The notes beneath the pieces were generated by a model, which worked only from the letters and a program-made list of their open reading frames with translations, had not been told where the DNA came from and did not search any database. Positions 2,584 through 38,599 of a DNA stretch of 61,592 bases are shown here, in pieces. Location: positions 1 through 61,592 of IMG/VR virus record IMGVR_UViG_3300044629_000651. One strand, written 5' to 3'. A program made the translations under genes and the position numbers. How positions within the stretch are numbered: the first letter of the stretch is position 1; each line of letters starts with the position of its first letter. Source of the stretch: a virus.

Positions 2584-3495
2584 TTACGCGCCGCTCGATG
2601 CGTACGCTCCGCGCGGGTTTCCGAACAGGAAGCCGTAACGCTCTCGTACCCGATAGCGTATGTTACCTGTGTTATCGTCGGAGTCCATCTTCTTGCGAAG
2701 CGGGGAGCGCTCGACGTACTGCAGGCCGTTCTCAGCGTCGGTGGTGATGAACCACGCATCCGGGTCACTGAGGAACACGTTGGTGGAGAAGCCGCCAGCG
2801 ATCAGCCCCATCGACTTGATGGCGTTGAGATCGTTGTCAGCCGTACCCACGCGACCATCGGTCTTCAACAGACGCTGCGAGACGAACTGAAGTTCGGTCG
2901 GGACGATCAGCTTCTTGGCCGTCAGGTGCACCGGCAGGCCGCGCTCGTCAGTAGCATCGCCGATCAGGATCAGCATGTCTTCCAGCGAGGTTTCCGAGAT
3001 GTCGGCTTGCGTCGACAGCGTGTTGGCCAGCGTGCCCCCACCCATCAGCGGATGGTCGGTAGCAAACAGAACCTTGCCGTCGCCGCCGGTGTAGCCAGCG
3101 GTGAAGCCGTAGTTCAGCAGGTTGGCACCCTTGACGTTCTTGGTGTATTGCATCGAACGGGCGAGAGCCTTGGCCATCTGCGAGCCGAGGTCGGCGTACA
3201 GGTCGTCTTCCTGCGCTTCTTCGGTGATCGCCACCGCGAGAGCAACAGTTTCGAACACCAGACGGGCAACCCAGCCTTCGGAACCTTCGTCGAAGGTGTA
3301 GCCGGAGCCTTCGGCTTTGACCACGCCGCCGCCCAGACCGGACATCAGAACCTGCTCGATGTACGCCTTCTTGGATTCCTTGGCAACGGTGCAGAAGTCA
3401 CGCCAGCCTTCGGGTTGGGACTTGTACTCAAGTCCGAAAACTGCATCAAGCCCTTCTTGCAGTTGCTTTTTGATAAGTGCGCGATTCATTGCCAT
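2584..3495 (-). CDS. Major capsid protein
   Basis: A 303-residue protein that fits the HK97-fold major head proteins of the Mu gpT-like type. It has an N-terminal helix (ALIKKQLQEGL), a central segment with FETVALAVAITEE, a turn FATDHPLMGGG, and a C-terminal strand block ending in RERYGFLFGNPRGAY. It is preceded by the decoration-type gene and scaffold, followed by a strong terminator, and has AAGGAG 8 nt before ATG. It would polymerise into the procapsid shell around the scaffold. Family assignment rests on remembered sequence pattern and synteny. Confidence 0.82.
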   Translation of the reverse strand: MAMNRALIKKQLQEGLDAVFGLEYKSQPEGWRDFCTVAKESKKAYIEQVLMSGLGGGVVKAEGSGYTFDEGSEGWVARLVFETVALAVAITEEAQEDDLYADLGSQMAKALARSMQYTKNVKGANLLNYGFTAGYTGGDGKVLFATDHPLMGGGTLANTLSTQADISETSLEDMLILIGDATDERGLPVHLTAKKLIVPTELQFVSQRLLKTDGRVGTADNDLNAIKSMGLIAGGFSTNVFLSDPDAWFITTDAENGLQYVERSPLRKKMDSDDNTGNIRYRVRERYGFLFGNPRGAYASSGA

Positions 3496-3510: not shown

Positions 3511-4059
3511 TTAGGCCATGAGAGGCACGTTGTTGAACACAATAACCTTGGCGTTGATGCCCCAAGCGTTATCCGCTTTTGCCGCCAGCCCGTAAACCAT
3601 CCACTGGCCGGTGCCGGTGTCACTGATGTCGATCTCCTGCCCGGACTGGCCGGTCAGCGTCGAACCTGCGTGGTCGGCTTCCATGTCGTAGGCAACACCT
3701 ACGCTGGCCACAGTGCTGGTGGTGCCGGTGTCGGTCTGCACTTCGTACAGGATGTCCGGGTCGACATAGACGAGTGCCTTGACGACAGCAGCAGTGTCGG
3801 TCAGGGCAACGCCGGGCCAGTACTTCGAGAAGATCACTTCGCCAGCGTTGTTGCGGTACTCGCAGCCGGCGAACACGCCGAGGACGGTCGCGGAGTCTTG
3901 CGCCGCGATGTTGACCAGACCGGAAGCGAGGATCACGGAGTCGCCGTAATAGATGGCGGTGCCGTAGTTGTAAGCGATGGTGAATTCAGCGGTGCGGATT
4001 TCGCCACCACCTTTGTGCCCGCAGGGTACGAACCCACGCGGAGCGTCGACGTTTGCCAT
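3511..4059 (-). CDS. Head decoration / capsid stabilising protein (182 aa)
   Basis: Begins MANVDAPRGFVPCGHKGGG, a pattern typical of small capsid-associated proteins encoded directly before the major capsid gene. It is Gly, Ala, Val and Thr rich, predicted beta, with no membrane segment or catalytic motif. It is 15 nt from the capsid gene and the first gene after the TTGACA promoter at 4177-4205, so it shares high late expression with the capsid. The decoration role is inferred from position and composition. Confidence 0.65.
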   Translation of the reverse strand: MANVDAPRGFVPCGHKGGGEIRTAEFTIAYNYGTAIYYGDSVILASGLVNIAAQDSATVLGVFAGCEYRNNAGEVIFSKYWPGVALTDTAAVVKALVYVDPDILYEVQTDTGTTSTVASVGVAYDMEADHAGSTLTGQSGQEIDISDTGTGQWMVYGLAAKADNAWGINAKVIVFNNVPLMA

Positions 4060-4176
4060 GATTGGCTCCTTTGTCAGATGAAAAGACTGTTTCGCCCCAA
4101 CATCTGCGCAGAAGGAATAGTCGGCATCTGCGCCCAGCCAGCGGTTCGGGACACCAAAACCACCGTGTAAGCAAAC

Positions 4177-6396: not shown

Positions 6397-8955
6397 TTAT
6401 ACGAATCGTGCTTGTGGTTGGTTAATGCCTTGTGCTATCGGGGCCGGGCCCCCACCCTGCCCCTGCATCATCATGCGCGACAGCGCCGTCACCACGTCGG
6501 TGAAGGGTTTGCCCAGTGCCTTGCTGATCACCGCCAGTTCCCTCGGCGACATCTGCAACCCGGCCTGCTTGATGAACTCGTCCGCCTGCTTGACCAGTTC
6601 CGGGGAAATGCCGGCAATAGCGTCTTCCCGATCTACCTCCTGCGCAAGCTCGACGTTCTTCCGCTGCTGATCCGACTGGACTCCGGCATTCTTCCGCTGC
6701 TGCTCGGCGTCGAACGCCATCTGCTTGCGCTTTTCCTCGGCCTCGAACGCCGCCTGCTTGAACGCTTCGTCCTGCTGCGGTTGTTGCGCCTGTTGCTGGG
6801 CTTGCTGCTGCGCCTGTTGTTGCTGCATGAACTGCTGCATCGCCTGTGCTGTCATCAGGGCCAGTTGGCTCTCGATCTGCGGGGGCAACTCCTGCCCCAA
6901 CGCCTCGGCGTTCGTCGCTTTCCAATTCATCGGCGGAAGCTGCACACCCTGCTGCGCCAGTACTTGCGCAATCTGCATGTACCCGGCCATCGCCATGTGC
7001 TCCGCGATGTGGGCGTTCATCCCTGCCTGCCGCTCTTGGGGCATCCCCGTCATCTGCATCATGTGCACCTGCAAATGCGCCTGATGGTTCTGCTCGATGA
7101 ACGCTTTGATCGGACGGCCCAGCATGTAAGCACTTCCTTCGGACGCCGGGTCGAGCCGCTGCGCATCCGCCGGTTTCGGGAACACGCTCTCGGGGTTGGG
7201 GAAGCGCATAGCCGACAGCAAGCCTATTGCCGCCACGCGGCGGTCTGCAAGGTCGGGCATCGACTGAGCAAGCTGGAGGGCCGACTGCGCCATCGCTATA
7301 CGCTGCGCGCTGCTGAAGATGTTGGGGTCCGACACGGGGATGACATCCACCCGCCCGTCGTAGTCGCTGCGCAGCACGTTCTGCTGGCCATCCGCCGGCA
7401 TGTAGGGGTACACCTCGGGGAGCGACTCGCCGTTCAACTCGGCAAGGTGCATGAACTCCGTGCCGAAGGCGTAGTGCAACCGCTTGTGGATGCCGCTGAA
7501 AACCTTGCTGCCCTGCTCGATCTGCGCCACCATCGTACCCACCGGGCCGGTCGTTGCCGCGTCCCCTACCATCGTCTCGGTCGTCGCCGCAAAGCGCTGC
7601 CCCAGTTCCGTGATGGTCCCCAGCAAGCTGAACAGTACCTGACTCGGCTCCTTGAACGGTGGCGTGTAAAACGCACGGGCCAGTTCCTCCGCCGTCATCT
7701 CGGTGTCGAGCCACACTCCCGGCTCAAGCTGCACATCCCCGGGCAGCTTGGCATCCTTGGACTTGAAGCCTCCCTGCAGGGTAGCGAACGCGCCGGCGTC
7801 CAGCAGGATGCGCAGGATTTCCGTCGCCGCCTCACCGAGGTTGCCGATGCAGTGCAGCAGGCCGAAGCCGTAGAACCCGAACCCGGGCAGGAATTTCTTG
7901 TGCGTGAACCACACCCGCTTCTGGCGCGTCTCGTCCGTCTCCCGCCAGTTGCGCCGGATACCGATGATCGTCTCGCTCGCCGAATCCACCGTGACGATGT
8001 ACGGCAGGGCGTAGTCATCCTCCATCCCGGGCAAGTCGTAGTCGATATGCACTTCGTAGAGGTGGTACTCCTTGTCGCCGTCCAGCCTCGCGCCGGGCTT
8101 TTCCTGCCCGTCGAGGTCCGTCAGCACCTCCGTCAGCGCGGGCTCCGCATCATTGTTGTCCTCGGGGTCGCAGTGCTCAAGCAACTCGTCCGAATACATC
8201 CCCGCCGCCACCGCGCGTCGCATGGCGTTCTTGGTCATCGGAATCACATGGGTGTAGCGCGGGGCCGTGGTCAGCGACTTGGTGTCGTAGGGGGCGATGA
8301 AATGATCCGACCGCACCCAGCGGGAGACATTCTTGCCCGTGACAGGGTCGGTGTATTGCTTGTCGAACTCGCTGCCCGAAAACGGCAGCAGGTACAGCAT
8401 CTGGTCGCGCTCCTCGTAATACCCGCGATCCTCGATGGTCAGTTGGTAGTTCATGTGCTGCTCGATCCGCGCGCCCTGCGCCAGCACTTCGGGCGTCTGC
8501 TGCCCGATGATGTTCGATTTCACCGGCCCGCCGGGCGGGAGCAGTTCCGCCATCGCGCGCGCTTGGAACTGGGTCGCCGCTTCGATCAGCAACGGATGGG
8601 TCACGCGGCTGATACCGTTCTCCGCATCGTCGTCCGGGGAATAGACGCCAAGCGCCTTCAGCCCTTTCTTGAACGTACTGAACCATTCCTTGCGCGACTC
8701 GTCGTCCGCGCGCACCTTCTCCACGATGTCGCAACCGATTTCCTTCAACTGGTCTTCGGTGAAAATCTCCACCAAGTTCGCGTTGAACGGTATCGTGTCG
8801 ATACTCAGGCACACCGCCATGCAGTCGTCTTCCAGCACCTCGCCGGTCTCCGCGTCGAGCGTGATCTCGTCGCGCTCCTCAAGGGGAATCTCGTCTTCCA
8901 GTTCCGCTGATTCGGGCAGGAGGGAGTCGTCTTGCGTCATCTTGTTCATGTACAT
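6397..8955 (-). CDS. Portal protein (P22-type, 852 aa)
   Basis: A large acidic protein whose length and placement after the large terminase fit the P22/podovirus portal family, which forms the dodecameric DNA channel at one vertex. Visible features are a helical N-terminal stem region, a central LHCIGNLGEAATEILRILLDAG segment typical of portal crown/wing regions, and a Gln-rich helical C-terminal barrel around residues 700-760 (long QQQ/QAQQ runs). ATG 8953-8955 follows AAGGAAA; an in-frame ATG two codons later is possible. It starts 22 nt after the terminase stop. Confidence 0.85.
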   Translation of the reverse strand: MYMNKMTQDDSLLPESAELEDEIPLEERDEITLDAETGEVLEDDCMAVCLSIDTIPFNANLVEIFTEDQLKEIGCDIVEKVRADDESRKEWFSTFKKGLKALGVYSPDDDAENGISRVTHPLLIEAATQFQARAMAELLPPGGPVKSNIIGQQTPEVLAQGARIEQHMNYQLTIEDRGYYEERDQMLYLLPFSGSEFDKQYTDPVTGKNVSRWVRSDHFIAPYDTKSLTTAPRYTHVIPMTKNAMRRAVAAGMYSDELLEHCDPEDNNDAEPALTEVLTDLDGQEKPGARLDGDKEYHLYEVHIDYDLPGMEDDYALPYIVTVDSASETIIGIRRNWRETDETRQKRVWFTHKKFLPGFGFYGFGLLHCIGNLGEAATEILRILLDAGAFATLQGGFKSKDAKLPGDVQLEPGVWLDTEMTAEELARAFYTPPFKEPSQVLFSLLGTITELGQRFAATTETMVGDAATTGPVGTMVAQIEQGSKVFSGIHKRLHYAFGTEFMHLAELNGESLPEVYPYMPADGQQNVLRSDYDGRVDVIPVSDPNIFSSAQRIAMAQSALQLAQSMPDLADRRVAAIGLLSAMRFPNPESVFPKPADAQRLDPASEGSAYMLGRPIKAFIEQNHQAHLQVHMMQMTGMPQERQAGMNAHIAEHMAMAGYMQIAQVLAQQGVQLPPMNWKATNAEALGQELPPQIESQLALMTAQAMQQFMQQQQAQQQAQQQAQQPQQDEAFKQAAFEAEEKRKQMAFDAEQQRKNAGVQSDQQRKNVELAQEVDREDAIAGISPELVKQADEFIKQAGLQMSPRELAVISKALGKPFTDVVTALSRMMMQGQGGGPAPIAQGINQPQARFV

Positions 8956-8976: not shown

Positions 8977-10596
8977 TCAAGCCGCCTGCAGGCGGGTTCG
9001 GCGACGAGCATAGCTTCTTTGGGGAGGGCTGTCACCCTCCTCATCGTCGTCTTCCTCATCCTCGGGGGTTTCCAGCATGAACATGCGCCGGGCGTAGTTC
9101 AGCGCCATCGTCACCGAGTCGACCGAGTCATCTTCCGGGCCGGCGGGGAACGCCGCACATACGTCGATCAGATTCCTCGCCCACTTCCTGTCGGGGTAAT
9201 ACACCACGCCTTGGGACAGCGGGATGGTGGCCGCGTCCGCGCGGCTGTACTTGGTTCCCAGCGGCTTGATGGGCGACACGGGGATACCGCGCCGGCGGAA
9301 TTCTTGGTAGAGCGGGATACCGCTCGACGCCTTTTCCACGATGATCCGGTCGGGCTTGTATTCCTTGTACGATGCCAGCGCGTTCTCCAGCAGATCGGGG
9401 AAGTCCAGCTTGTGCAGGGTGTATTCGATGACCATCAGGCACAGCCGCCCGTCGGACGGGCGCTTGAACACCCCCCACGTTGTCCGCGCCGTGAAGTCGT
9501 TGTGCTCCGCCGTCTCCGATGCCACGTCGTAGGACTGGAACACATAGGTCATCGTCGGCAGTTCTTTGCTGCTCGGCCACATCTGCCACCACTCCGCGCG
9601 CAGCAGCCCGCCTTCTTCGGCCACCGGGGATTGGAGGTACAGCGCCGACCACGCGCGCGGACTCATCGTGGAGCCGTTTTTGGTCCGCATCAGGTCGAAG
9701 ATCGGGAACCGCCGGGGGGCGTAGGAATCCCCCGCCTTGAAGGTGATCGGATCGTCTTGGAGGTACTTGCGGTATTTCGGGTCGTGGCTGATGCGGGTGA
9801 GCAGCGCGGCAGCGGGTTCGTCGAGGATAGCCGGGATGGACAGTACGTCCCATTTGTCGGCATCGGGGTTGATTGCCTGCTGCGCCAGCAGCCGGCCCGA
9901 GAGGTCGTCGACCGCCCAGCGGGTATTGATCAGGATGATGGCACTGCCTCGCCCGGTGACGTAGTCCCGGGGCATCTGCCGAGAGTAGAAGCCGGGGCCA
10001 TACCACTGCCACACCGCCTCCTTGGCCGTGCGGCTGATCGCCGTCTTTTCGTTCAACAGGTCGTCGAGGATGCCCAGCGCGAAGCCCTTGCCCGCGATAC
10101 CAGTATCGACGCCGGCGGTACTGTACTTGCCGTTTTGCGTGGTGGCCCATGCGGAGACGCTGCGACTGTCCTTGGACAGCTTGGTGTTGGGGAACACCTC
10201 GGCGTACTCTGCCGTTGTCAGCAGGTTTCTGGATTCCCGACCAAAACCCTCGGACATCGTGGCGCTGTGACCGACCTGCATGATTTGCTTGGATGCGTTG
10301 TGGCCGATGAAGTACGTCGGGAAGAACACCGACGCCATCTGCGACTTGCCGGTACGGGGTGCCACGAACAGCATCAACCGGTCAATGTCGCCGTCCGCCA
10401 CCGCCTGCAGTCGTTCGGCAATGGCGATGTGGCACTCCTCGATGACGAACCAAGGAGCGATGTGGTTGATGTAGTCGAGGAAGGTGTGCCCCCGCTTTCG
10501 CAAGGTGTTTCTGCGCAGGTACTCCTGCACCACGACGCGCTCGTCGGCGGCAAGGAGGGAGAGATCGAAGTCCGCAATGGTGTCAGCGGGGGTCAC
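8977..10596 (-). CDS. terL: Terminase large subunit
   Basis: 539 residues. It carries an ATPase Walker A VAPRTGKSQ (78-86), a Walker B-like LGILDD (174-179) and a C-terminal RNase H-like nuclease region with acidic residues in SYDVASETAEHNDFT and IIVEKASSG segments. It packages DNA through the portal and cuts the concatemer. The C-terminus ends in an unusually acidic patch (EDEEDDDEE) followed by a basic tail. The ATG overlaps by 4 nt the stop of the inserted GIY-YIG gene. Confidence 0.9.
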   Translation of the reverse strand: MTPADTIADFDLSLLAADERVVVQEYLRRNTLRKRGHTFLDYINHIAPWFVIEECHIAIAERLQAVADGDIDRLMLFVAPRTGKSQMASVFFPTYFIGHNASKQIMQVGHSATMSEGFGRESRNLLTTAEYAEVFPNTKLSKDSRSVSAWATTQNGKYSTAGVDTGIAGKGFALGILDDLLNEKTAISRTAKEAVWQWYGPGFYSRQMPRDYVTGRGSAIILINTRWAVDDLSGRLLAQQAINPDADKWDVLSIPAILDEPAAALLTRISHDPKYRKYLQDDPITFKAGDSYAPRRFPIFDLMRTKNGSTMSPRAWSALYLQSPVAEEGGLLRAEWWQMWPSSKELPTMTYVFQSYDVASETAEHNDFTARTTWGVFKRPSDGRLCLMVIEYTLHKLDFPDLLENALASYKEYKPDRIIVEKASSGIPLYQEFRRRGIPVSPIKPLGTKYSRADAATIPLSQGVVYYPDRKWARNLIDVCAAFPAGPEDDSVDSVTMALNYARRMFMLETPEDEEDDDEEGDSPPQRSYARRRTRLQAA

Positions 10597-11348
10597 TTCT
10601 TTGCTGCTTTCCGGGACATCGCCAAAAGCACTTCAGGGTTGGCAAGATGCCGCGCAAGCGCTTTCTCCGCGATCTTCGCCTTTGTCTCTGCCGACATCGC
10701 CCGCCTTGGCCGCTGTCGAAGTTTCTCCTTCCCTTCGGGCGTAGAAAAATACGCCCGTAACGTCTCCGCCCGCTTTTGGTTTGATTCCTCCGAGTTGGTT
10801 TTCCCCCGGTTACCAGCGGCGATGCGCTCCTTCCGTAGCTGGTTTGTCGCAAAACTCCGTTGCTGCGACGCCCGCATACGGGCCAGTGTCTGCTCTGAAA
10901 ATGTACGCCCCTTGAGTTTGCTGCGGAGGTTCGCCACTATCGACGGGTCAGCGGCGATCTGCGCTTTGCGTGTCGCACTCTTTTTCGCCTTCGTTTCCGC
11001 CGACACGATGCGCCCCTTTCCCGCTTCGGCTATTCGTTTCCGTGTCGCCTCGGTAGGGACGTACCCACTCGCCCCCTCACCGCCGTCCGTCAAGTTGCAC
11101 AACTCAACGCCCATGCGCCGCAAACACTTGATCAGCCCTTTCTCCAATTCGAATGCAATAGCTTCCGAGGAACAGTCGCGCTTACCCACCAAGATGCTAC
11201 TTGTGCCGTACTTCCCTGTAACGTGCTTGTGCCAAGCGGTTCGGTCGTGCATGTTGTGCGCGCGCCGCCCATGCCCTTTCCCCACATAGAATGGGGTTCC
11301 ATCGGGGCGGCAGTGGATGTAGGCGTAGAACGCTTTACTCGGCGTCAT
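10593..11348 (-). CDS. GIY-YIG-type homing endonuclease inserted between terminase genes
   Basis: Start at ATG 11346-11348, overlapping the small terminase stop by 14 nt; its own stop overlaps the terL ATG. The N-terminus FYAYIHCRPDGTPFYVGKG matches the GIY-YIG catalytic core variant YxYxH...FYVGKG, with a later conserved Arg/His block and a Glu in EAIAFELEKGLI. The rest holds repeated NUMOD3-like elements (SAETKAKKSATRK, TFSEQTLARMRAS, SAETKAKIAEKA), DNA-binding modules of phage homing endonucleases. A freestanding mobile element is the likely identity. Confidence 0.82.
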   Translation of the reverse strand: MTPSKAFYAYIHCRPDGTPFYVGKGHGRRAHNMHDRTAWHKHVTGKYGTSSILVGKRDCSSEAIAFELEKGLIKCLRRMGVELCNLTDGGEGASGYVPTEATRKRIAEAGKGRIVSAETKAKKSATRKAQIAADPSIVANLRSKLKGRTFSEQTLARMRASQQRSFATNQLRKERIAAGNRGKTNSEESNQKRAETLRAYFSTPEGKEKLRQRPRRAMSAETKAKIAEKALARHLANPEVLLAMSRKAAKK

Positions 11349-11865
11349 AGGTAATCCCCTCCGGTGCGGGCGGCTTGGGGGTACGTTTAAGGACAAGTTG
11401 CATGACGCGCATCTCAAGTTCCCCGTCAGACATAGCTTTTACCAGCTGCGCCATGTCCGCCAAGGACTCGGGGGCCCCCTTCCCCACAGACGCCGCCGGA
11501 TTGTCTAGCCCCGCCCACTTAACCGTACTCTGAATCAATGAAGCCCGCACAGCGGCGGGGGTTTGGTCGCTCGACGCCATCCGATACACCATGTTCAGGT
11601 ACAACTCGGCTTGGCTGGCGGCTTTTTTGCGAAAACTCCACCCTTCCGTCTGCATTTCCTCGCGGAGCGTGTCGTATTCCTTGCGAAACGCGGGGTTGGC
11701 AAGGATTTTCTTGAATTGCTCGGGGGCTAGGTGGTAGGAATCGAGGATTTCCTGCAGTGTGCCGACTTCCAGCACGAGATCGAGTGACAACCCACGGGGG
11801 TAGGGTGCCTTTTCCGAGGGATCGGTCGGCAGGTTGAGCGAATCAATGAAATCGGAGGGGGTCAT
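11335..11865 (-). CDS. terS: Terminase small subunit
   Basis: 176 residues. The N-terminal half has a helix-turn-helix-like pattern (GTLQEILDSYHLAPEQFKKILANPAF), the middle is an oligomerisation-type helical segment (KKAASQAELYLNMVYRMA), and the tail is flexible and Pro-rich. It would recognise the packaging start site. Assignment relies on its position upstream of terL and this layout. It starts at ATG 11863-11865, overlapping the stop of the zinc-ribbon gene by 4 nt. Confidence 0.75.
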   Translation of the reverse strand: MTPSDFIDSLNLPTDPSEKAPYPRGLSLDLVLEVGTLQEILDSYHLAPEQFKKILANPAFRKEYDTLREEMQTEGWSFRKKAASQAELYLNMVYRMASSDQTPAAVRASLIQSTVKWAGLDNPAASVGKGAPESLADMAQLVKAMSDGELEMRVMQLVLKRTPKPPAPEGITYDAE

Positions 11866-13084: not shown

Positions 13085-13225
13085 ATGTGGGAAGTGTTCT
13101 ATATCGACTCGCTGCTGCGCTACCGCGTGGCGTGCGAGTTCAAAACCCGAAAGGCTGCGAAGCAATTCTGCGAGCAGCACCCGGGGCACGGGTTCCGCAA
13201 TGCCGCAGCATGGCGAACCATGTGA
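13085..13225 (+). CDS. Small hypothetical protein (46 aa)
   Basis: An ATG at 13085 with GGAGG seven bases before it opens a 46-codon frame ending TGA at 13225, immediately before another terminator. The protein begins MWEVFYIDSLLRYRV and ends in GFRNAAAWRTM; the middle (FKTRKAAKQFCEQHPG) is a basic helix followed by a turn. It resembles small phage domains that handle nucleic acid, but no family is recognised. A good ribosome-binding site and terminator framing argue that it is real. Confidence 0.65.
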   Translation: MWEVFYIDSLLRYRVACEFKTRKAAKQFCEQHPGHGFRNAAAWRTM

Positions 13226-13227
13226 CC

Positions 13228-13255
13228 AAGCCCGCTTTCGCGGGCTTTTTCTTTT
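13228..13255 (+). terminator. Rho-independent terminator
   Basis: AAGCCCGC (13228-13235), loop TTTC, GCGGGCTT (13240-13247), followed by a T-rich run TTTCTTTT. It lies 3 nt after the 46-residue gene and closes the short early block. Confidence 0.88.
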
Positions 13256-13757
13256 GTGCGGCGCACAACCATTTTCTACAATCGTTGGAAATCAACGACT
13301 TAGCTTTTTGGCGGCGGTTTTCTGTGCTTTTTTATGACGGAAGCCTATGGTTTTGGGGCGTGTGTTATGCTGTTGTGCTAGAAAACAGGGTGTTTTTCTA
13401 TGCGTCGTGGCATAAAAACAGCGCGGAAGCCCGTGGGCCAAGGGTTTGCGGGCGATTTGCATGGTGTTTTGGGTCGCTGCTGTTTTTGTAAGTGGTTGAT
13501 TTTAACCCCATTCGCCGGAGGCCAGCCGCTCGATTCCTTAGTACGCGCGCATAATACGCGCGACGAGGCCATGCTCCTCGCATATAGGGGACTTCGGCTG
13601 GAATGCCGGTGGCTCTAGGCAAGACAGCGTTCCATCTTTTTTTCTTGTGTTTCGGAGGCTGCACGGGAATGCCAACGAATCAATGACTTACAAAACGCCC
13701 GGTAAGTCTGCACATTTTTAGGGATCGCCAAGACCCGCGTGGCAGTAGGAAAACCTC

Positions 13758-13786
13758 TATATATATCTTTTAAAAGAATATATATA
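13758..13786. repeat. AT-rich palindrome
   Basis: Perfect CTTTTAAAAG (13767-13776) with near-symmetrical alternating TA arms of nine bases on each side (one extra A at 13777). It would melt or extrude easily and is the most AT-rich spot in the region, fitting an unwinding element. Confidence 0.6.
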
Positions 13787-14106
13787 TACCACTTTTAAAG
13801 TTGCTATCCGCTTTTTATTTTTAGGGGGGTAGGGGGTAGTTGACCCTAGGTACCCTGCCATCCCACTTTTATTTCCCACCCGCTCCTCAAAAAAAGTGCT
13901 CTTTCGTCACTTCAAAACAAGATAGCCACCCCCTCCGTCCTACTGCCACAACGATCTCCGCCATCTCTCGAAAATGCCCCATTTTCTATGCCATTTTTAA
14001 GTCATTGATTCCATGCATATACACAAAAATTTTTATGCATCGCGTCATATTTTCGAAAAAAATCCCTGAAAAATCAAGGGCTTAAAAACGCCGTCGATTT
14101 TCATCT

Positions 14107-14112
14107 TATACT
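14107..14112 (+). promoter_or_regulatory. Possible -10 box for the noncoding RNA
   Basis: TATACT at 14107-14112 lies directly before the first stem of the structured region. No good -35 box is present at 16-18 nt (only TTAAAA with a 19-nt spacer), so a weak or activator-dependent promoter, or transcription from further upstream, is possible. Confidence 0.35.
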
Positions 14113-14755
14113 GCCGACTCAAATTTGCGGTTCGGCATTGCCCCCTATAGGACAGGCAATCAACAAAACTGCACTCCTGATCGGTCAGGAGAGAGGTACT
14201 TCTACCCGTAAAAAGCGTCGGTTACACGACGAACTGGGCCTTACGCACCGAACAAATCGAAACCAGCAACGCAGGACTCCCCTGAAGTAGGGGGTGTGGC
14301 AGCACTGTAAAGCGTAGGGCGCAGCATCAACGTGCCGGTCGGGAACAGCGAGACGATGGACTACGAAACAGAGACACACCCATTCAAAGACGTGCCGATG
14401 GGCATGGTGATAACAAAAAGGGGGACGAGACCGATGCTGGCAACTGCACCGAGCGGATAAACGCTTGTCTGTGGGACTGCATGGTGAGGAGAATTTCTCC
14501 AACCACCCATGATTCATCCACAGCTTCACTAAAACCGACTTTGGAGAGACCCCTTGATAGGGCAGAACTCTCGGACTTAACGGTGCAGAACTCATGGGAT
14601 TGATGGAAGAACCTGCTTCGTAGCACTGCATGGCATTCATGCCTAAACAGGAAGCACCAGTACCCCAATGCCTCAGTCCCCATTCTTAACCCCTGCCCAG
14701 TGGGGTTAAGACGTATATCGAAATTGGGCTAAAGAAGCATCCTCTAATGAAGTAC
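14113..14755 (+). ncRNA. Large structured noncoding RNA candidate (GOLLD/ROOL-like class suspected)
   Basis: About 600-640 nt without a credible gene but with a dense series of hairpins: GCCGA/TCGGC (14113-14136), ATTGCC/GGCAAT enclosing CCTATAGG (14137-14160), CTCCTGA-TCGG-TCAGGAG (14174-14191), a CCCC/GGGG stem at 14276-14294, three nested helices CTGTGG, CATGGTG and GGAGA (14469-14523), GAGAG enclosing CCCT-TGAT-AGGG (14544-14572), and CTTAACCCC/GGGGTTAAG (14685-14710). Purine-rich single-stranded joints (GAAAC, GATAAA, TAAAAC) separate them. Size, phage setting and ornate nesting resemble GOLLD and ROOL RNAs; family membership is not shown. Ends are approximate. Confidence 0.6.
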
Positions 14756-14799
14756 TGGCCGTGCAGACCCACGGAGAATCCACTAGGAGAACAGCCATC

Positions 14800-15021
14800 A
14801 TGGCTACCCAGACCCAAAGCATCACCCGCACCATCCTCACCCCGACCGTCGTCACCACCGACGAACTGCGCATCACCCTCAACCTCAAGACCCCCGAGGG
14901 CTGCACCAAGAACGAGGCGATCCGCTTCAACAACGAGCTCGTCCGCATCTGCAAGGCCCGTGGCTTCATCCCGATGGTCACCAAGAAGGACACCGTCGAG
15001 GACGACGCGGTTACCCAGTAA
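14800..15021 (+). CDS. Small hypothetical protein downstream of the structured RNA (73 aa)
   Basis: Starts at ATG 14800 with AGGAG 11 nt upstream. It is Thr-rich at the N-terminus (TQSITRTILTPTVVTTDELRI), then an alpha/beta-like stretch (NEAIRFNNELVRICKARGFIPMV) and an acidic tail. No family recognised. As the first gene after the RNA element, it may share its transcript. Codon usage looks like the genes that follow. Confidence 0.6.
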   Translation: MATQTQSITRTILTPTVVTTDELRITLNLKTPEGCTKNEAIRFNNELVRICKARGFIPMVTKKDTVEDDAVTQ

Positions 15022-15039
15022 CCAGCAACACCGCACTAC

Positions 15040-15061
15040 CCCACCCCCTCACCGGGGTGGG
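15040..15061 (+). terminator. GC hairpin between early genes (attenuator-like)
   Basis: An 8-bp stem CCCACCCC/GGGGTGGG (15040-15047 with 15054-15061) without a following T-run. It may limit read-through or protect the mRNA end. Confidence 0.4.
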
Positions 15062-15105
15062 CGCTTCACCTACTACCCACTCATTCACAGATCAGGAGCC
15101 CCACC

Positions 15106-17427
15106 ATGCATTACGACCTGAACGACGAACGCAGCAACAACTTGCTGCACACCCTTGAACGGAGAATGTTTTTGTCCGAGCAAGAGGCCACCCGTACCGG
15201 ATCGTGGCTGTCCAGCAAGCCCAACACCCACAACTTCGACCCCTCCTACATCACCGAGGTCGAAATCACCCGCTGGCACGCCTTTCAGGCGCAGCAGAGC
15301 CGTGCCCAGCACTTCGTGTACCGGATTGAAAATCTCCGCAATCGTGTCGCTACCAACCTCTCCAAGCGCCTCGACCCGTACAAGAACGGACAGCGCAGCG
15401 CTACCTACCGCACCCGCATTCTCTGGACCCGCTGGGATGAGCGGTCGTTCCCGTTTTTCCGCCGCGACAGTGACAACCAGCGGGAACTGCACCACTACGG
15501 CCCCTTCCGCTCCCCACCGGAGCACCTCTGGCTTCCGGCCCGCAACTGGGTGGTGCGCAATGCCTACGCCAAAGCGGAAGGGTGGCTCAACACACGTCGC
15601 CAGTACCGTGAGACTGGCCGTGCCGTGGCCAAGCAACTCTCCATCCCCTGTGCCCTCTTGCGGCACGACAAGAACTCGTTCGTCGCACTCGAACACCTGT
15701 GGCAGATGATTCACGAGGGAAACCCCATGCACCGCATCACCGATATCATCTACGGCAAAGCGCCGCAGATTGCGGAAGCCAAGAACAACTTCGACCGCAA
15801 GGGGTACACCTACCTCGATATCCACATCCTGACCCACTCACAGCAACTCTCCAAGCCCCTCCCCGACCACCTCGTCACGCTGCTTGCCAGCCACCAACTG
15901 CACAAGTCCGACGACCCCAGCGACCCCACTAAGATTGCGTACGCACCATCGTTCGCCTATTTCGCCAAGGACAGGTTCATCCGCACTTCCCTTGGCAAGT
16001 ACCTGACCAAGTTCCTCGGCGATTACCTCACCGAGGAGCAAATCCGCACCGTGGCGAACACCTACAACGCTCGCAACAAGCCCCTCACCCTGCATCTCGT
16101 CCCGCCGACTGACCCGAACGGTTGGGAGTGGGTGTATGAGCACGGCACGAGCTTCACATCCTGCATGACCTACGACCGCAACGAACGCTACCTCATCGAG
16201 GAAGCCTGCGGCCTCAACCACCCTGTCCGTGCCTATGCCCACCCCAGCAGCAATCTCCACCTCGCCTATATCGGCGTCCCCGGCACGGAAGTCTGGGCCA
16301 GAACCATCGTCAACCCGACCAACAAAACCTACGTCCGAGTCTATGGGGATGATCGGATGTACAACCTGCTCCAGACACAGGGCTACACCGAGCACCGCAG
16401 GGACTGCTGCATCAACCAGCCCGTGTCCCTCATGCCCCGCAATAACCCCGACGATCCCCACGCGCTGTTCCTTCCGTACCTCGACTGGGGGCAGGTGACG
16501 TTCCTCGACGACAAGCGGGACAAGCTGGTGTTCATCGACAGCAGCATCCACGTCGGTGTCGGTGGCGGTTCCAACGGCACAGCATCCACCCGGTTCCTCC
16601 GCACCCTCGAAGATCAGCTTGCTACCCCGAAACCCTCCGAGGATGATGAGGATGAGGATGAGGATGAGGATGAGGATGATGATGAGAACATCTACTGCTG
16701 CGATGACTGCGGCGATGACGTGGATGAGGACGATACGACCTACATCGAATCCCACGACCACCGGGTGTGCAGTTCCTGCCTCGACAACAACTACCAGGAA
16801 GCTATCGTCAACCGCCGTGGCGGCACGGGTTGGATCCACGAGGACGATGCGGTCTACTGCGAGTCCAACGGCAACTACTACACGGACAGCGTTACGGACT
16901 ACCACGGTGTGCGGCACTGCGAGTCGCGGGACAGCTACTACCTTGAGGACGATATGGTGTATGTCAGCGGGCGCAGCGAGTGGGTTCATCAGGATGATGC
17001 TGTTCGACTGGACCACCCCACCACGGCAGGCGGCGACGACTACATCCACGAGGACGACGTGACCACGACCGCTGACGACTTGTCCATCCACGACGATGAT
17101 GCAGAGACGTGCGAAGTGACCCACAAGCGGTACTTCGCTCCGTCCATGTGGGAGATCGAGTGGAAGGACGAGACGACCGTCACTCACCCCCATGCCATTG
17201 CCCGCCGCCCCGAGTTGTTCAGCATCCTCCGCATCGAAGGGGAGTTTTACATTGTTGAACGAGGCCAGTCTATTGAATGCCCTCAGTTGCTGCCGTTCTT
17301 CGAAGCATTGGTTCACTACGGGTATCCCACGGAGTTCGCCAACGTCACCCTCCGCGACGACTGCGAGGGGGAGTCGGTCGACGACTTCATTGCACCGTTC
17401 GTTCTCGCTCTTTCCCTCGCCGCCTGA
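15106..17427 (+). CDS. Large acidic zinc-binding protein of unknown function (773 aa)
   Basis: Starts at ATG 15106 after AGGAG. Residues 1-480 form a conserved-looking body with HGTSFTSCMTYDRNE (about 347-361) and HPVRAYAHPSSNLHLAYIG (about 375-393), motifs I associate with uncharacterised phage proteins. Residues about 505-526 are a D/E run encoded by tandem GAGGAT units. Then follow CCDDC and CSSC zinc-ligand pairs (about 530-565) and repeats of a W/Y-I/V-H-E/Q-DDAV motif (about 590-670). No membrane segment. The role is unknown; acidic and zinc modules suggest nucleic-acid or protein interactions, or DNA mimicry. Confidence 0.7.
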   Translation: MHYDLNDERSNNLLHTLERRMFLSEQEATRTGSWLSSKPNTHNFDPSYITEVEITRWHAFQAQQSRAQHFVYRIENLRNRVATNLSKRLDPYKNGQRSATYRTRILWTRWDERSFPFFRRDSDNQRELHHYGPFRSPPEHLWLPARNWVVRNAYAKAEGWLNTRRQYRETGRAVAKQLSIPCALLRHDKNSFVALEHLWQMIHEGNPMHRITDIIYGKAPQIAEAKNNFDRKGYTYLDIHILTHSQQLSKPLPDHLVTLLASHQLHKSDDPSDPTKIAYAPSFAYFAKDRFIRTSLGKYLTKFLGDYLTEEQIRTVANTYNARNKPLTLHLVPPTDPNGWEWVYEHGTSFTSCMTYDRNERYLIEEACGLNHPVRAYAHPSSNLHLAYIGVPGTEVWARTIVNPTNKTYVRVYGDDRMYNLLQTQGYTEHRRDCCINQPVSLMPRNNPDDPHALFLPYLDWGQVTFLDDKRDKLVFIDSSIHVGVGGGSNGTASTRFLRTLEDQLATPKPSEDDEDEDEDEDEDDDENIYCCDDCGDDVDEDDTTYIESHDHRVCSSCLDNNYQEAIVNRRGGTGWIHEDDAVYCESNGNYYTDSVTDYHGVRHCESRDSYYLEDDMVYVSGRSEWVHQDDAVRLDHPTTAGGDDYIHEDDVTTTADDLSIHDDDAETCEVTHKRYFAPSMWEIEWKDETTVTHPHAIARRPELFSILRIEGEFYIVERGQSIECPQLLPFFEALVHYGYPTEFANVTLRDDCEGESVDDFIAPFVLALSLAA
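16636..16685 (+). repeat. In-frame GAGGAT microsatellite
   Basis: Tandem six-base GATGAG units encode alternating Asp and Glu inside the 773-residue gene. Copy number could change by slippage without breaking the frame, altering linker length between the body and the zinc region. Confidence 0.8.
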
Positions 17428-32313: not shown

Positions 32314-33860
32314 TAATTCCACAGCATCAAGCGATAGTCCTCAAGGCGAACAAGCCTGAACAGATTTACGCTTGCATCCCGCAGGCTAAACCGTTCAACT
32401 ACCAAGGAACCCCGCTGGTTTATGTGCCGCACAACATAGACGCCGTCCGCATACTCCGGAACATCGGAGCGAAGGCACCGGGGCCGATCAACTATTACTA
32501 CGACTACCCCCCATCCGAGGGCAAGGACAAGCCGTTCGCACACCAGAAGGTCACCTCGGAATTCCTGACGCTTAACCCGCGCTGTGCTGTACTCAACGCA
32601 CCGCGTACCGGCAAGACGAACTCGTGCTTGTGGGCGGCAGACTATCTGATGACCGAGAAGCGGATACGCAAGGTGCTCATCGTGTCCCCGCTGAGTACCC
32701 TTGAGCGGGTGTGGGGGGATGCAGTGTTCCTCACGTTCTACCACCGCAAGGCGCTGGTGCTGTACGGTTCGGCAGAGCGGCGCAAGAAACTGCTGAAGCA
32801 AGATGCCGACTTCTACATCATCAACCACGACGGGTTCGGCATCATCAAGGACTGCCTGCCGGATGACATCGACCTTGTGATCTACGACGAGGCAGCGGTG
32901 CTGCGGAACCCAAGCACCCGGCGCTTCAAGCAGTTCCACACGTTCATGGGAACCCGCCCTGCCATGCTGCTGTGGCTGCTGACGGGGACGCCGACACCGA
33001 ACGAACCGACCGATGCATGGGCGCTGTGCAAGCTGTTGGGGCAGGGGGTTCCCCGCTATGCCCTGTTCCGCGAGCAGGTCATGCAGAAGGTGGGGCAGTG
33101 GTCGTGGCAACCTCGCCCGGAGGCGGAGTTGATTGTGCAGCAGGTACTCCAGCCGAGCATCAGGTTCTCACGGGACGACTGCTTCGACTTGCCCGACACG
33201 ATCTACGAAACCCGGCAGTGCGAGCTACACCCCGAGCAGGTCAAGCTGTACAAGAAGATGGTCAAGGAACTGGTGGTCGAGGTTGGCTCGCAGCAGATCA
33301 CCGCTGTCAATGAAGCGAACAAGGTGCAGAAGCTGTTGCAAATCCTGCTGGGTGTGGTGTATGACACGGCAGGTGAGCGGGCCTTCATCGACTGCGAACC
33401 ACGCATCGCCGTGATCCGGGAAATCATCGAGGAGTGCAACGAGAAAGTGATCGTGTTCGTGCCATTCACCGGAGCGTTGGAGGACATAGCCGACAAACTG
33501 GCGAAGGACTTCAAGGTAGCGGTCGTCAATGGCAGCGTACCCAAGCACGCCCGTGACACAATCTTCCAGCAGTTCGCTCGCCCTGACGGGATACGGGTTC
33601 TGGTTGCCGATGCCCGCACCATGTCTCACGGGCTGGACTTGTCCTCGGCAACGACGATCATCTGGGCCGCACCAACCAACAGCAACGAAACATACGAGCA
33701 AGCCAATGCTCGCATCATGGGGCCGAGGCAGAAGCACAAGACTGCCATCGTGCATATCGAAGCAACTGCTATAGAAAGGAAAATCTACCAACGACTGAAG
33801 GACAAGCAATCCCTGCAAGGACTGCTCTTAGACGTGATCCAACAACAGGAGGTCATATGA
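32307..33860 (+). CDS. SNF2/DEAD-like superfamily 2 helicase (517 aa)
   Basis: Motifs: Q-type PFAHQ (76-80), Walker A NAPRTGKTN (97-105), motif II YDEAA (193-197), motif III LLTGTPTPNEP (224-234), and C-terminal motifs VFVPFTGAL, VVNGSVPKHARD, SHGLDLSSAT and QANARIMGPRQ. It probably translocates on or remodels DNA during phage replication or recombination. ATG 32307 overlaps the end of the HNH gene by 7 nt; GCAGATGCAAA precedes it without a strong SD, so translation may be coupled. Function in the cell is inferred from the block. Confidence 0.85.
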   Translation: MLIIPQHQAIVLKANKPEQIYACIPQAKPFNYQGTPLVYVPHNIDAVRILRNIGAKAPGPINYYYDYPPSEGKDKPFAHQKVTSEFLTLNPRCAVLNAPRTGKTNSCLWAADYLMTEKRIRKVLIVSPLSTLERVWGDAVFLTFYHRKALVLYGSAERRKKLLKQDADFYIINHDGFGIIKDCLPDDIDLVIYDEAAVLRNPSTRRFKQFHTFMGTRPAMLLWLLTGTPTPNEPTDAWALCKLLGQGVPRYALFREQVMQKVGQWSWQPRPEAELIVQQVLQPSIRFSRDDCFDLPDTIYETRQCELHPEQVKLYKKMVKELVVEVGSQQITAVNEANKVQKLLQILLGVVYDTAGERAFIDCEPRIAVIREIIEECNEKVIVFVPFTGALEDIADKLAKDFKVAVVNGSVPKHARDTIFQQFARPDGIRVLVADARTMSHGLDLSSATTIIWAAPTNSNETYEQANARIMGPRQKHKTAIVHIEATAIERKIYQRLKDKQSLQGLLLDVIQQQEVI

Positions 33861-34258
33861 CCACAGCATTAAGCAAGGACGGACTGGCAGCGGCATACGT
33901 TGCCGCCCGTGACCGTGTCGCTGTACGGGACGCCGAGACTAAAGAGGCGAACCATGCGGACAAGGAACTCATGGGCAAGATCGAAACGTATTTCAAGGGG
34001 GTTGCCGCCGTCGAAGGCGTCGACTCTTGGAAGACAGCGCACGGCACGATCTACTTGTCGCGGATTGACAGCGTGAAGCTGGCCGATCCGGACTCGTATT
34101 TCGAGTACGTCGTTGATAACGAGGCGTGGGATTTGATCGAGAAGCGGGCATCCAAGTCAGGTGTCCGTGGCTTCCTCGAAGCGCACGGCTCGATGCCGCC
34201 GGGGGCAGAGCTTTCCACCCGGATCGAAGTGAACATCCGCAGACCATCAGCTACTTAA
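33857..34258 (+). CDS. Hypothetical protein, possible recombination partner (133 aa)
   Basis: ATG 33857 overlaps the helicase stop. Acidic, Ala-rich helical N-terminus (AAYVAARDRVAVRDAETKEANHADKELMGKI), then beta-type SWKTAHGTIYLSRIDSVKL. It resembles small accessory proteins near phage single-strand binding proteins. No catalytic motif or clear family. Confidence 0.6.
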   Translation: MTTALSKDGLAAAYVAARDRVAVRDAETKEANHADKELMGKIETYFKGVAAVEGVDSWKTAHGTIYLSRIDSVKLADPDSYFEYVVDNEAWDLIEKRASKSGVRGFLEAHGSMPPGAELSTRIEVNIRRPSAT

Positions 34259-34271
34259 CCACGAGGCTATT

Positions 34272-35243
34272 ATGCAAACCAATCTTCCCATGATTCAAAA
34301 CGCGCAACTCCCCGCTCACCTTGCCGCCGCCATTGCCAACAAGCAGATGGCCGTCAGTGCCGATGCTCTCGTCGGCGCAACGACTTCAGGTGCCGTCCGT
34401 CTGGTCGCCAACCAAGGGCGCTTCCGCATCAAGGAAGGCAACGTCGAGACTGTCCTGCCGGACCTGTATCTGGACACCATCATCGTCGGAGCGCTCCCCG
34501 GCATCACCAAGTCCTACTACGCCACGGGGTACAACCCCTCGGATGACAAGGCGAACAAGCAGCCCGACTGCGGCTCGCTGTTCGGCGACGTGCCCGATGC
34601 TAACAGCCCTGCAAAGCAATGCACCACCTGCGCGGCCTGCCCGCAGAACGCTTGGGGTTCCAAGATCGCCAACGGCAAGGAGATCAAGGCGTGTTCGGAT
34701 TACCGCCGTGTCGCCGTCATCGCTGCTGATGACCCGGAGACGATCTACCAAGCCAACATTCCGCCGGCCAGCATCAAGGGCTGGACGAAGTACGTCAAGA
34801 CGCTGTCGCAGCGTGGGCTGGATGTCAGCATGGTGATCACCCGTCTGTCCCTGCAGGAGCACATGTGGGTGTTCGATTTCGCCGGCTTCGCCAGCACCGA
34901 GCAGTACGGGGCAGTGCAGCCGCTGCTGGGTTCCTCACAAGTGCAGGACGTACTCGGCACGTTGGGACGTACCCCCGGGCAAGCCGCTCTCCCCGCTCCT
35001 GCCGCTGCCGACATGATGCGCAACGTCGCTCCTCCCCTGCCCGCCGCTGCCGCTGCTCCGGCTCCCGCCCCCACCCCCGCTGCCCCGCCTGCACCTCCGA
35101 CCAAGGGCTTCGGTAAGAAGGGCGCTGCGGCTCCTGCTGCACCCCCTGCCGCTGCTGCTCCGGCTCCCGCCGTGGTGGCTACCGGGCTGGAGAATCTGGC
35201 TGCGGAACTGGGTGCGCTGATCAGCGGCAACGCTGATGTGTAA
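34272..35243 (+). CDS. Putative single-strand DNA-binding / replication protein (323 aa)
   Basis: A conserved-looking N-terminal 230 residues contains a zinc-like cluster CTTCAACPQNAWGS (about 120-133) with a distal Cys in KACSDYR. A C-terminal tail is very rich in Ala/Pro (about 245-300). It sits directly between helicase partner and primase, and this set and size resemble phage proteins annotated as single-strand binding or replication factors. No OB-fold motif is diagnosable by eye. Confidence 0.5.
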   Translation: MQTNLPMIQNAQLPAHLAAAIANKQMAVSADALVGATTSGAVRLVANQGRFRIKEGNVETVLPDLYLDTIIVGALPGITKSYYATGYNPSDDKANKQPDCGSLFGDVPDANSPAKQCTTCAACPQNAWGSKIANGKEIKACSDYRRVAVIAADDPETIYQANIPPASIKGWTKYVKTLSQRGLDVSMVITRLSLQEHMWVFDFAGFASTEQYGAVQPLLGSSQVQDVLGTLGRTPGQAALPAPAAADMMRNVAPPLPAAAAAPAPAPTPAAPPAPPTKGFGKKGAAAPAAPPAAAAPAPAVVATGLENLAAELGALISGNADV

Positions 35244-35261
35244 AAAAGTCTGATGTTGATT

Positions 35262-35289
35262 GGGACGCCTTGGTATTCCTTGGCGTCCC
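35262..35289 (+). terminator. Hairpin between SSB-like and primase genes
   Basis: GGGACGCC (35262-35269) pairs with GGCGTCCC (35282-35289) around a 12-nt loop. Only TTGAG follows, so it may be an attenuator. The 148-bp gap also holds a G-run/C-run stretch at about 35340-35370. Confidence 0.5.
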
Positions 35290-35391
35290 TTGAGACACTG
35301 CATATCAGCGGCTCCTTATTTGGGGGGCTTGTAATCCAAAAAGGGGAGGGGGACAATACCCCTTCCCCCTTATAACCGTGAAGGAACCGAC

Positions 35392-38361
35392 ATGGATCGG
35401 TACGCATTTCTGTCCGCCGTTTTACCCCCCGAAGATAGCGGCAACTACGTTGCAGTGTTCGCCAAGGGGGACATGAAGTGGAACCGCCACTTCACATCAA
35501 TACAAGCGCTGGCCGATGGTTGTGTGTCGGCCTCCCAGCAAAACCTGACAGCATACTTCGCACTCGGATCGTTCCGGGATAACACGCAAGAAGAACCCGA
35601 CGGCAAGATCAAGACCTTCCGCAAAGCTGCGATGGCCCATGAGTTCCGGACCTACGCCATCGACATAGACTGCGGCGAAGGCAAGCCCTACGAGAACGCT
35701 GCCGCCGGGCTGGCAGACCTGATCAGATTCATCAAGGCAACACGGCTCCCTGTCCCCATCGTGGTGTCCTCCGGCAACGGCATCCACGCCTACTGGGCAC
35801 TCACTGAGGCCATTCCCCGGGACACATGGAAGGCCAACGCAACAACCCTCCGCACTATCTGCCACGCCCACGGGCTACACATCGACACTTCCAAGGTGCA
35901 TGACCCTTCGATGGTGCTGCGGCCTCTGGACACAACGAACTTCAAGGGGGGCAACACCGTCCGGGTGCTGCAGGTATCCCCTCCAAACACACCTGATGGC
36001 ATTGACGGCCACATTGCCCGATGCGCTCCCGCCGGCAGCAAGCCCGCTGCCAAACCTGCGAAGTTATCCGCAGCGCAAACCATCAACGAAGCCATCCTCG
36101 CCGCCGACGCGGCACAGTACCCACCGTTCATCCCCGACCTTGTCACCCAGAACTGCCTGCAGATGCAGCAGGCGACGGAGCTAGGGGGTGTCAATGCCGA
36201 TGAACCGGTGTGGCATCTGGTGTGCGGCATGGCGAAGTTCTCGCAGGAACCCGTGGCCACGGTGATCCGCTGGTCGGAAGGCCATGCGACCTACACCGAA
36301 GACAAGGCCGTTGCCAAGATGAACGACTGGGGCGCGAAGCCCCCGACCTGTGTGGTGTTCGATGCCCGCCGCCCGGGGGTGTGCTCGAAGTGCGTCCATT
36401 GGGGCAAGCTGGGCAGTCCGGTACGCCTTGGGTTCCCCCCGCCGGCACTGATTTCTCCGCCTCCGCCCGCCCCCTTGTCTGATTTCGACGCCTCTGACGA
36501 TGAGGCCGAATATGGCGAGGAACCCCCGGTCCGTACCGGGCAGGTAACCGACACCTCCCCCGTGGTTGAAGCCCCATCCCCGTTCCGGCGCACGGCTTCC
36601 GGGGTTCAGGTGGAGATAAACAACGTGTGGAACGATGTCTGCGCCTATGACCTGTTCCCGGCCCAGATCGTCCGTGACCCCACGGTGGGGCATGACATGG
36701 TGGAGTGGGTCTGGAACAAGCCCCACGTCGGGTATGTGCGGATGCGGGTCCGGATGGCGTACATCTTCAACGACAGTTCCATCATCGACCTCAACAGCAG
36801 TTTGGCGGACAACGGGTTCCTCGTGCCGACCAAGGTGCGCCAGATTTGGCTAGGAGCCTACATGAGAGCGTATGTGCAAATGCTACAGAAACACCAAGCC
36901 GCCGTCGACCTGTACGATTCGTTCGGCTGGAAGAACGAGAACACCCGCTTCGTCGTGGGTTCGACCGAGTTCCGCCGCGAGGAGTCCGGGCGCGTGACCT
37001 CCCATGAGGTGGGCGTGTCGAAGCTGATCACCACCAAGGGGTACGACAAGACGTTCAGTGCCAAGGGTGACCTCTCCACATGGATACAATGGACGAAGAT
37101 TCTGGACCAGCCCGGCCTTGAACTCCACCAAGTGGAGCTTGCTCGGGCCTTCGCATCGCCTCTGTACGCCCTTACCGGGCTGCGGGGGATGGTGGTGTCC
37201 CTCCTCGGCAAGACAGGGGCAGGAAAGACCACCATGCAGGACTGGGCGGCATCCGTTTATGGGGTGCCCAAGCGGGTGAACACCACGGTGAATGATACGC
37301 AGATGTCCATTGTGCAGCGGATGGGTGTTTGGAGTTGCCTGCCGCTGGGGATCGACGAGGTGACGCTGATCAAGCCCGAGTTGCTGGCGAACCTGATCTA
37401 CTGGGGGACGCAGGGGCAGGACCGCAACCGGGCGAACGAGATAACCCAAGCCAACACATGGGCGCTGCCGCTCTCGCTCTCCACCAACCGCTCCCTGCGG
37501 GACAAGGCAACCACCGTGGGGGCCGACGTGACTGCCATCCAGATGCGGATGCTGGAGTTCTCCTTCCCCGAGAGCCACGTCTTCAGCGTCGACAAGGACT
37601 ACGGACGCCGCATCAACACCATGCTGGCCGACAACTACGGGCTGGCTGGCCGGGTCTATGTCGAGTACCTGCTGTCCCTTGGCGAAGCCCGGATCAAGCA
37701 GGACATCGAGGAGTGGACGCGGCGACTGGGCCGGGCGCACAAGTTCGAGTTCGCCCCCAACGAGCGGTACTGGCAGACCCACATGGTGCTGTGTGATCTG
37801 GCATCCTACTACGCCAAGCAGTGCGGCCTCATCCTGTACGACTTCAACAAGGGAACCGCCGCTGCGCTGGTGCAGATCGAACAGCAACGCCGGGCGCTCA
37901 ACGGGGCGCAGCTTGATGCCTACGACCTGATTGCCGACTACCTGACCTCGTTCAACCACGCCGCCATCACCATTGCCTATCACGACGGGGTGCCGAATGT
38001 GCGTGACCCATTGCCACGGGGCGAGGTTCGAATCAGGAAGGAGTTGTACTTCACAGGCAAGAACGCCAAGCTGCCGGATCGTGGATTCGCTTTCCTCGAC
38101 AAGGCGCACTTCCACCAGTGGCTGGTTGGGCGGGGGTTCGACTTCAAGACGGTCATCGACACCACGATGGCAGACTCCTGCGGGTTCAAGCCCGGCAAGA
38201 CAGGGCGCATCTACATGGGCAAGGACTCCGGTATCGCCCTCCCGCCCTGCTCAGTATTCGGCATCAACATGGGCCACGAACGGTTCAAGGGGATGCTCGA
38301 CCCTGCCGCTGATCTGGGTAACGTGATCAGCATTAACTCCGCTGTCAAATCGAAAGGATAG
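35392..38361 (+). CDS. Primase-helicase (AEP-like primase with C-terminal ATPase, 989 aa)
   Basis: The N-terminus has the archaeo-eukaryotic primase signature AIDIDCGEG (Asp91, Asp93), SGNGIHAYW (127-135), and DPSMVLRPLDTTNFK (171-185). The C-terminal half has a DUF927-like ATPase with Walker A LGKTGAGKTT (about 605-614), Walker B-like PLGIDEV, and sensor residues LSTNRS. It could synthesise primers and unwind the fork with the family A polymerase. No integrase-type replication initiation protein is seen, so it is probably the main replication initiator. SD is GAAGGAA before ATG 35392. Confidence 0.8.
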   Translation: MDRYAFLSAVLPPEDSGNYVAVFAKGDMKWNRHFTSIQALADGCVSASQQNLTAYFALGSFRDNTQEEPDGKIKTFRKAAMAHEFRTYAIDIDCGEGKPYENAAAGLADLIRFIKATRLPVPIVVSSGNGIHAYWALTEAIPRDTWKANATTLRTICHAHGLHIDTSKVHDPSMVLRPLDTTNFKGGNTVRVLQVSPPNTPDGIDGHIARCAPAGSKPAAKPAKLSAAQTINEAILAADAAQYPPFIPDLVTQNCLQMQQATELGGVNADEPVWHLVCGMAKFSQEPVATVIRWSEGHATYTEDKAVAKMNDWGAKPPTCVVFDARRPGVCSKCVHWGKLGSPVRLGFPPPALISPPPPAPLSDFDASDDEAEYGEEPPVRTGQVTDTSPVVEAPSPFRRTASGVQVEINNVWNDVCAYDLFPAQIVRDPTVGHDMVEWVWNKPHVGYVRMRVRMAYIFNDSSIIDLNSSLADNGFLVPTKVRQIWLGAYMRAYVQMLQKHQAAVDLYDSFGWKNENTRFVVGSTEFRREESGRVTSHEVGVSKLITTKGYDKTFSAKGDLSTWIQWTKILDQPGLELHQVELARAFASPLYALTGLRGMVVSLLGKTGAGKTTMQDWAASVYGVPKRVNTTVNDTQMSIVQRMGVWSCLPLGIDEVTLIKPELLANLIYWGTQGQDRNRANEITQANTWALPLSLSTNRSLRDKATTVGADVTAIQMRMLEFSFPESHVFSVDKDYGRRINTMLADNYGLAGRVYVEYLLSLGEARIKQDIEEWTRRLGRAHKFEFAPNERYWQTHMVLCDLASYYAKQCGLILYDFNKGTAAALVQIEQQRRALNGAQLDAYDLIADYLTSFNHAAITIAYHDGVPNVRDPLPRGEVRIRKELYFTGKNAKLPDRGFAFLDKAHFHQWLVGRGFDFKTVIDTTMADSCGFKPGKTGRIYMGKDSGIALPPCSVFGINMGHERFKGMLDPAADLGNVISINSAVKSKG

Positions 38362-38363
38362 TG

Positions 38364-38597
38364 ATGAAAGACACAGGTGCAAAACCCGTGGTGAAATGTC
38401 ACTGCGGGCGCAAGGTGAAGTTCAAAGTACAGAAGAAGTGGCCGAGCAAGAAGATGGAAACGTGGGTCTGCGGCTACCACGTCCGCGCTTACCTGACCAG
38501 TGAATACCGCCGGATCGACCTCACTCCGCCGCCGCCTAAGAAACAAGGGTATGCCATGCTGGTCCCCACCGGGGGCTACGGGGCAATGCTTGACTGA
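38364..38597 (+). CDS. Small zinc-binding protein at the end of the early arm (77 aa)
   Basis: ATG 38364 follows AAAGGATAG; an in-frame GTG one codon earlier is also possible. CHCGRKVKFK and WVCGYHVR are candidate metal-binding positions. Basic middle (KKWPSKKMETW). It precedes the convergent terminator. Unrecognised, possibly nucleic-acid binding. Confidence 0.6.
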   Translation: MKDTGAKPVVKCHCGRKVKFKVQKKWPSKKMETWVCGYHVRAYLTSEYRRIDLTPPPPKKQGYAMLVPTGGYGAMLD

Positions 38598-38599
38598 CC

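Follow-up and report, generated by a model that had tools for sequence, protein, structure and literature searches.

An evolutionarily conserved, structured RNA of ~615 nt appears to be encoded at ~14116-14729 on the plus strand of the window, as we call the whole 61,592-nucleotide stretch analysed here (IMG/VR record IMGVR_UViG_3300044629_000651), which comes from a 61.6-kb tailed phage (G000). Judged by comparison with a homologous sequence from a second viral contig, it very likely represents a real and new family of large structured phage RNA. To our knowledge, large structured phage RNAs are very few, and for each of them the function is unsettled; the present one has well-defined limits, a fold that can be tested and a clear 3′ pseudoknot, and opens an early operon.

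Genomic setting and coding potential

The structural genes of the phage lie on the minus strand and its early and replication genes on the plus strand (Table 1), separated by a gap without coding potential (13226-14799) of which 14113-14755 forms the downstream half. This half had been proposed, in a reading of the sequence only, as more than 600 nt lacking any plausible gene and set at the head of an early operon behind an AT-rich control region, and both points were borne out. Codon-usage scores for all ORFs of at least 40 aa in the region, on both strands, ranged from -0.88 to +0.07, far under those of the phage genes (+0.04 to +0.66, with 20 long genes at 0.24-0.51 and the 73-aa gene at +0.66). 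Positions 14113-14755 are non-coding on both strands, and codon usage rules out a decayed or overlapping gene in the RNA region. Elsewhere in the window, a homing-endonuclease-like ORF (phrog_314) was observed at 10593-11417 (-), between terL and a terS-like gene, a place from which it is absent in record G003.

Table 1. Features of the window, with the predicted parts of the RNA
Feature	Position	Strand	Remarks
Structural genes	MCP 2584-3495; portal 6397-8955; terL 8977-10596	-	
Early and replication genes		+	773-aa protein, peptidase, NinX, DUF932, DNA polymerase, helicase, primase
AT-rich non-coding control region	13226..14112	.	Upstream of the RNA; no coding potential
Intrinsic terminator	13228-13247		At start of control region
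TATACT, -10-like hexamer	14107..14112	+	Conserved in the L144 alignment; no consensus -35
Structured non-coding RNA (putative)	14116..14729	+	Ends inferred; 76% identity with L144, covariation
5′ nested stem, two helices	14126..14173	+	One double-compensatory pair per helix
7-bp hairpin, loop TCGG	14174..14191	+	Three double-compensatory pairs
Central domain, branched nested arm	14263..14440	+	Best conserved, 93% mean column identity
Second domain	14444..14588	+	8-bp closing helix; nested arm 14470-14522, hairpin 14544-14572
Third domain, long stem	14596..14680	+	Eleven double-compensatory pairs, inner helix 14614-14656 included
3′ H-type pseudoknot	14684..14729	+	Both stems covary; conserved crossing loop CGTATATCGAA
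Ribosome-binding site AGGAG	14785-14789		Precedes the 73-aa ORF
73-aa ORF	14800..15021	+	First gene past the RNA; codon score; no family match
773-aa early protein	15106..17427	+	Weak match to phrog_6980 (unknown function); relatives in G010, G001 and G002

Fold energy and comparative evidence for the structure

The plus strand of 14116-14735 (620 nt) folded at -212.3 kcal/mol, compared with -186.9 +/- 6.7 in dinucleotide shuffles (z = -3.8, none of 150 shuffles equally stable), whilst the minus strand gave z = -1.4; a first fold test over 688 nt, with 20 shuffles, had returned z -5.6 and -1.4 for the plus and minus strands, respectively. One of 20 control tiles from the same phage (12900-13520, which contains terminators) reached z -4.8 and thereby outscored the RNA region, so fold energy by itself was dropped as proof and is suggestive only. 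In 150-nt windows the region was unremarkable in stability; its stability stems from longer-range pairing.

Searches with blastn revealed no significant match to the region among phages and plasmids, and only chance matches of 14-22 nt in ~55 related viral records, those inspected lying mostly inside protein genes. A related phage, G010, was found via MCP relatives and carries the same early module as the window phage (identities of 64% for the helicase, 54% for the polymerase, 47% for DUF932 and 28% for the 773-aa protein). Aligning the control regions of the two phages exposed an 18-mer, CATTCGCCGGAGGCCAGC (window 13509-13526), which occurs as an unchanged single copy in the window, L144, G010 and L141, within non-coding DNA that has otherwise diverged. 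Its scan across viral contigs yielded one true homologue of the region, the 10,136-bp contig L144 (IMGVR_UViG_3300037493_005090), which a gapped loop pattern also recovered from viral contigs along with 27 chance matches. A further 18-mer match, in an Alteromonadaceae genome contig, was rejected as chance, being protein-gene-like and without similarity past 19 nt.

Positions 9062-9763 of L144 align with window 14027-14729 over about 700 nt (76% nucleotide identity, E 7e-136), and the two phages share 75%, 50% and 64% protein identity for portal, terL and terS. At the DNA level, identity was 76% for the RNA and 74% for the portal gene; on these figures the RNA is no less conserved than the portal gene and more so than terL, despite coding for no protein. 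A joint fold of both sequences contained 29 double-compensatory pairs and nine pairs kept via a one-sided change, with none broken. Since RNAalifold favours consistent pairs, a null was built in which each of the 149 substitutions was relocated to a position close by that carries the same base; it gave 9.0 +/- 2.4 double changes (maximum 16 in 120 simulations) and a consensus energy of -107 +/- 7.5 kcal/mol, against -180 for the real pair. Eighteen double changes were likewise kept in the minimum free energy fold of the window alone, made without L144 (4.4 +/- 1.9 expected). The double changes were distributed across about a dozen helices, and helices of at least 7 bp with a double change numbered six in the real pair compared with a null mean of 0.7 (maximum 4, n = 200). 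The opposite-strand fold was poorer (-166 vs -180), and the one-sided changes form wobble pairs on the plus strand. Compensatory change in homologues had been put forward as a test of a structured RNA, and we regard its outcome as decisive for an RNA structure. With only two sequences carrying the family, a helix free of changes counts as unproven and the layout of domains as provisional. The same pair provides a seed alignment for finding family members in metagenomes.

Anatomy of the RNA

Between a 5′ part and a terminal pseudoknot, the predicted fold comprises three domains (Table 1), the central one including a 46-nt stretch identical in the window and L144. Two stems singled out from the sequence alone reappeared in the joint fold with slightly shifted limits. 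A three-helix nested arm placed at 14469-14523 corresponds to 14470-14522, where five of 17 pairs show a change on either side with pairing preserved, and a presumed 9-bp hairpin at 14685-14710 corresponds to a 10-bp stem with two double changes that forms S1 of the pseudoknot (14684-14693/14702-14711). In S2 (7 bp), GCCCAGT at 14695-14701 pairs with ATTGGGC at 14723-14729, their counterparts in L144 being GCTCAGT and ACTGAGC. Similarity stops right after the pseudoknot, and the 3′ end was therefore set at ~14729; the proposed extent of 14113-14755 thus held as a structured region and not as to its 3′ limit. An extra pseudoknot at 14195-14200/14659-14664, with one double change, was rejected, as ~3.7 such helices are expected by chance per alignment.

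Transcription and possible function

No consensus sigma-70 promoter was found in a scan, and the start near 14116 is therefore putative; a search for a terminator or U-tract after the RNA was also negative. In L144, a 55-aa ORF (L144:9794) adjoins the RNA, and the first residues of the next ORF resemble the 73-aa protein by eye. That the neighbouring gene differs between the two phages while the RNA is kept speaks for an RNA that functions in its own right. The best explanation, and on balance a probable one, is a discrete trans-acting RNA with which the early transcript begins. Early in infection, it would form the leading ~615 nt of the early operon's transcript and would fold into the 5′ part, the three branched domains and the 3′ pseudoknot, the latter closing and protecting its end; it would then act as a discrete molecule, alone or with protein, in the manner of ornate large RNAs, whilst transcription reading through past it would supply the early mRNA. 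We infer where transcription starts, that the RNA is released as a molecule of its own and that it acts in trans. Given a host, the position at the start of the early operon makes timing and role easily tested.

Alternatively, the RNA could remain in the early mRNA and control it as a cis-acting leader, for example by rendering RNA polymerase terminator-resistant, as put RNAs do, or by acting as a gate on the operon's translation or stability; we consider this possible, if somewhat doubtful. The RNA immediately precedes the early operon and shares its orientation, no terminator follows the RNA, its position just ahead of the ribosome-binding site fits a leader equally well, and the G010 positional counterpart described below precedes the same operon. 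The conserved part ends 70 nt before the next start codon in the window and about 30 nt before it in L144, a proximity that suits a leader; yet it stops short of the ribosome-binding site, and the two phages differ in the gene next to it. The put leaders of lambdoid phages likewise are structured RNAs opening an early transcript, a likeness of position only; put antitermination elements measure tens of nt, and ~615 nt is far above known antitermination leaders.

A bolder reading, which we think unlikely, would place the RNA in a so far undescribed class of ornate phage RNAs that build up early in infection and assemble into a particle made of RNA only or into a ribonucleoprotein of their own, with positional counterparts such as that of G010 as fast-diverging members.

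A replication element, that is, a structured primer RNA or origin transcript issuing from the AT-rich control region in the manner of plasmid RNA II, seems quite improbable. Its attraction lies in the upstream ATCAAYGACTTA repeats and AT-rich stretches that are kept in related phages. The ATCAAYGACTTA repeats (window 13291-13302, 13679-13690 and 13998-14009 (-)) are confined to the control region, number three where 0.13 are expected, and are probably operator or origin repeats. L144 and G010 also carry ATCAAYGACTTA, and in all three phages a degenerate or exact copy lies just upstream of the RNA start (degenerate at window 14073-14083); a site resembling the control-region motif, ATCAANGRCTT, stands ~45 nt ahead of the RNA at window 14073, at L144 9108 and likewise in G010. 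Conservation of the RNA, however, halts at 14729 with the 3′ pseudoknot and does not continue into an origin, and neither an antisense control RNA nor an RNase H site was identified.

Comparison with known large RNA families

Membership of GOLLD, ROOL, OLE, HEARO or a self-splicing intron class, suggested by similar length, phage context and a branched fold, is highly improbable given no covariance-model match, no tRNA genes in the window and no interrupted gene. No Rfam family matched the window at gathering level, and within 13200-15200 no match to GOLLD, ROOL, OLE, HEARO or group I/II introns came up with E values as high as 5 allowed. Of the two options raised from the sequence, GOLLD or ROOL membership thus failed in the Rfam searches, and a new class is the better reading, with a conserved, covarying fold that Rfam did not match. 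GOLLD RNAs are often >800 nt with a universally conserved 3′ region, and OLE RNAs are about 600 nt, non-coding and intricately structured. ROOL RNAs are phage or prophage encoded, non-coding, about 600-660 nt long and multi-branched with pseudoknots; ROOL and GOLLD form RNA-only cages and often occur near tRNA islands, and GOLLD expression goes up in phage lysis (PMC12286853). OLE is a bacterial RNA, mainly of Bacillota (PMC12054373). The window RNA resembles ROOL in size, phage context, absence of coding and a branched fold with a pseudoknot, and differs in leading an early operon without tRNA neighbours. It shares with GOLLD its status as a large phage RNA, although it is shorter and has no tRNA nearby, and with OLE its length, lack of coding and intricate folding, although it is a phage RNA; a covariance-model match was lacking in all three comparisons. 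The window RNA may work like ROOL or GOLLD and, by these tests, belongs to neither.

In the relatives, Rfam detected no large RNA and tRNAs only, in G015 and G016. In an eleven-tRNA cluster of these two phages (L119 121-2044 and L129 6933-8856, respectively), two of the tRNAs stand about 660 nt apart with no gene called in the interval, a kind of setting in which GOLLD and ROOL occur; Rfam gave no match to it.

Early regions of related phages

At the corresponding place in G010, a TTGACA-containing site is followed by about 640 nt devoid of ORFs, after which come the small early genes and the gene for the 773-aa protein. The fold of this stretch was only marginally more stable than those of shuffles (z -1.7 to -2.2). 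Blast, profile and three domain covariance-model searches found no link between it and the window RNA, the best covariance-model score in G010 (8.9 bits, E 0.0077, in 901 nt with filters off) being a weak match; the stretch is reported as a positional counterpart of the same size, rather than a homologue. Against 792 kb of relatives, the three domain models matched only the window and L144, and model R3 matched none of 369 Gammaproteobacteria genomes in a scan run without a positive control. In G003, the reverse complement of 33000-45300 shows a strong TTGACA/TATAAT-like promoter at local 3640-4080 (L016). Some 400 gene-free nt come between this promoter and a small ORF with an ATPase-like gene, and the ~400-nt stretch is possibly another early leader RNA. 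The same phage carries, at record positions 35189-43476 (L014-L017), eight near-identical TGTGAGAATCTCACA-type palindromes between early genes, which are likely phage repressor operators.
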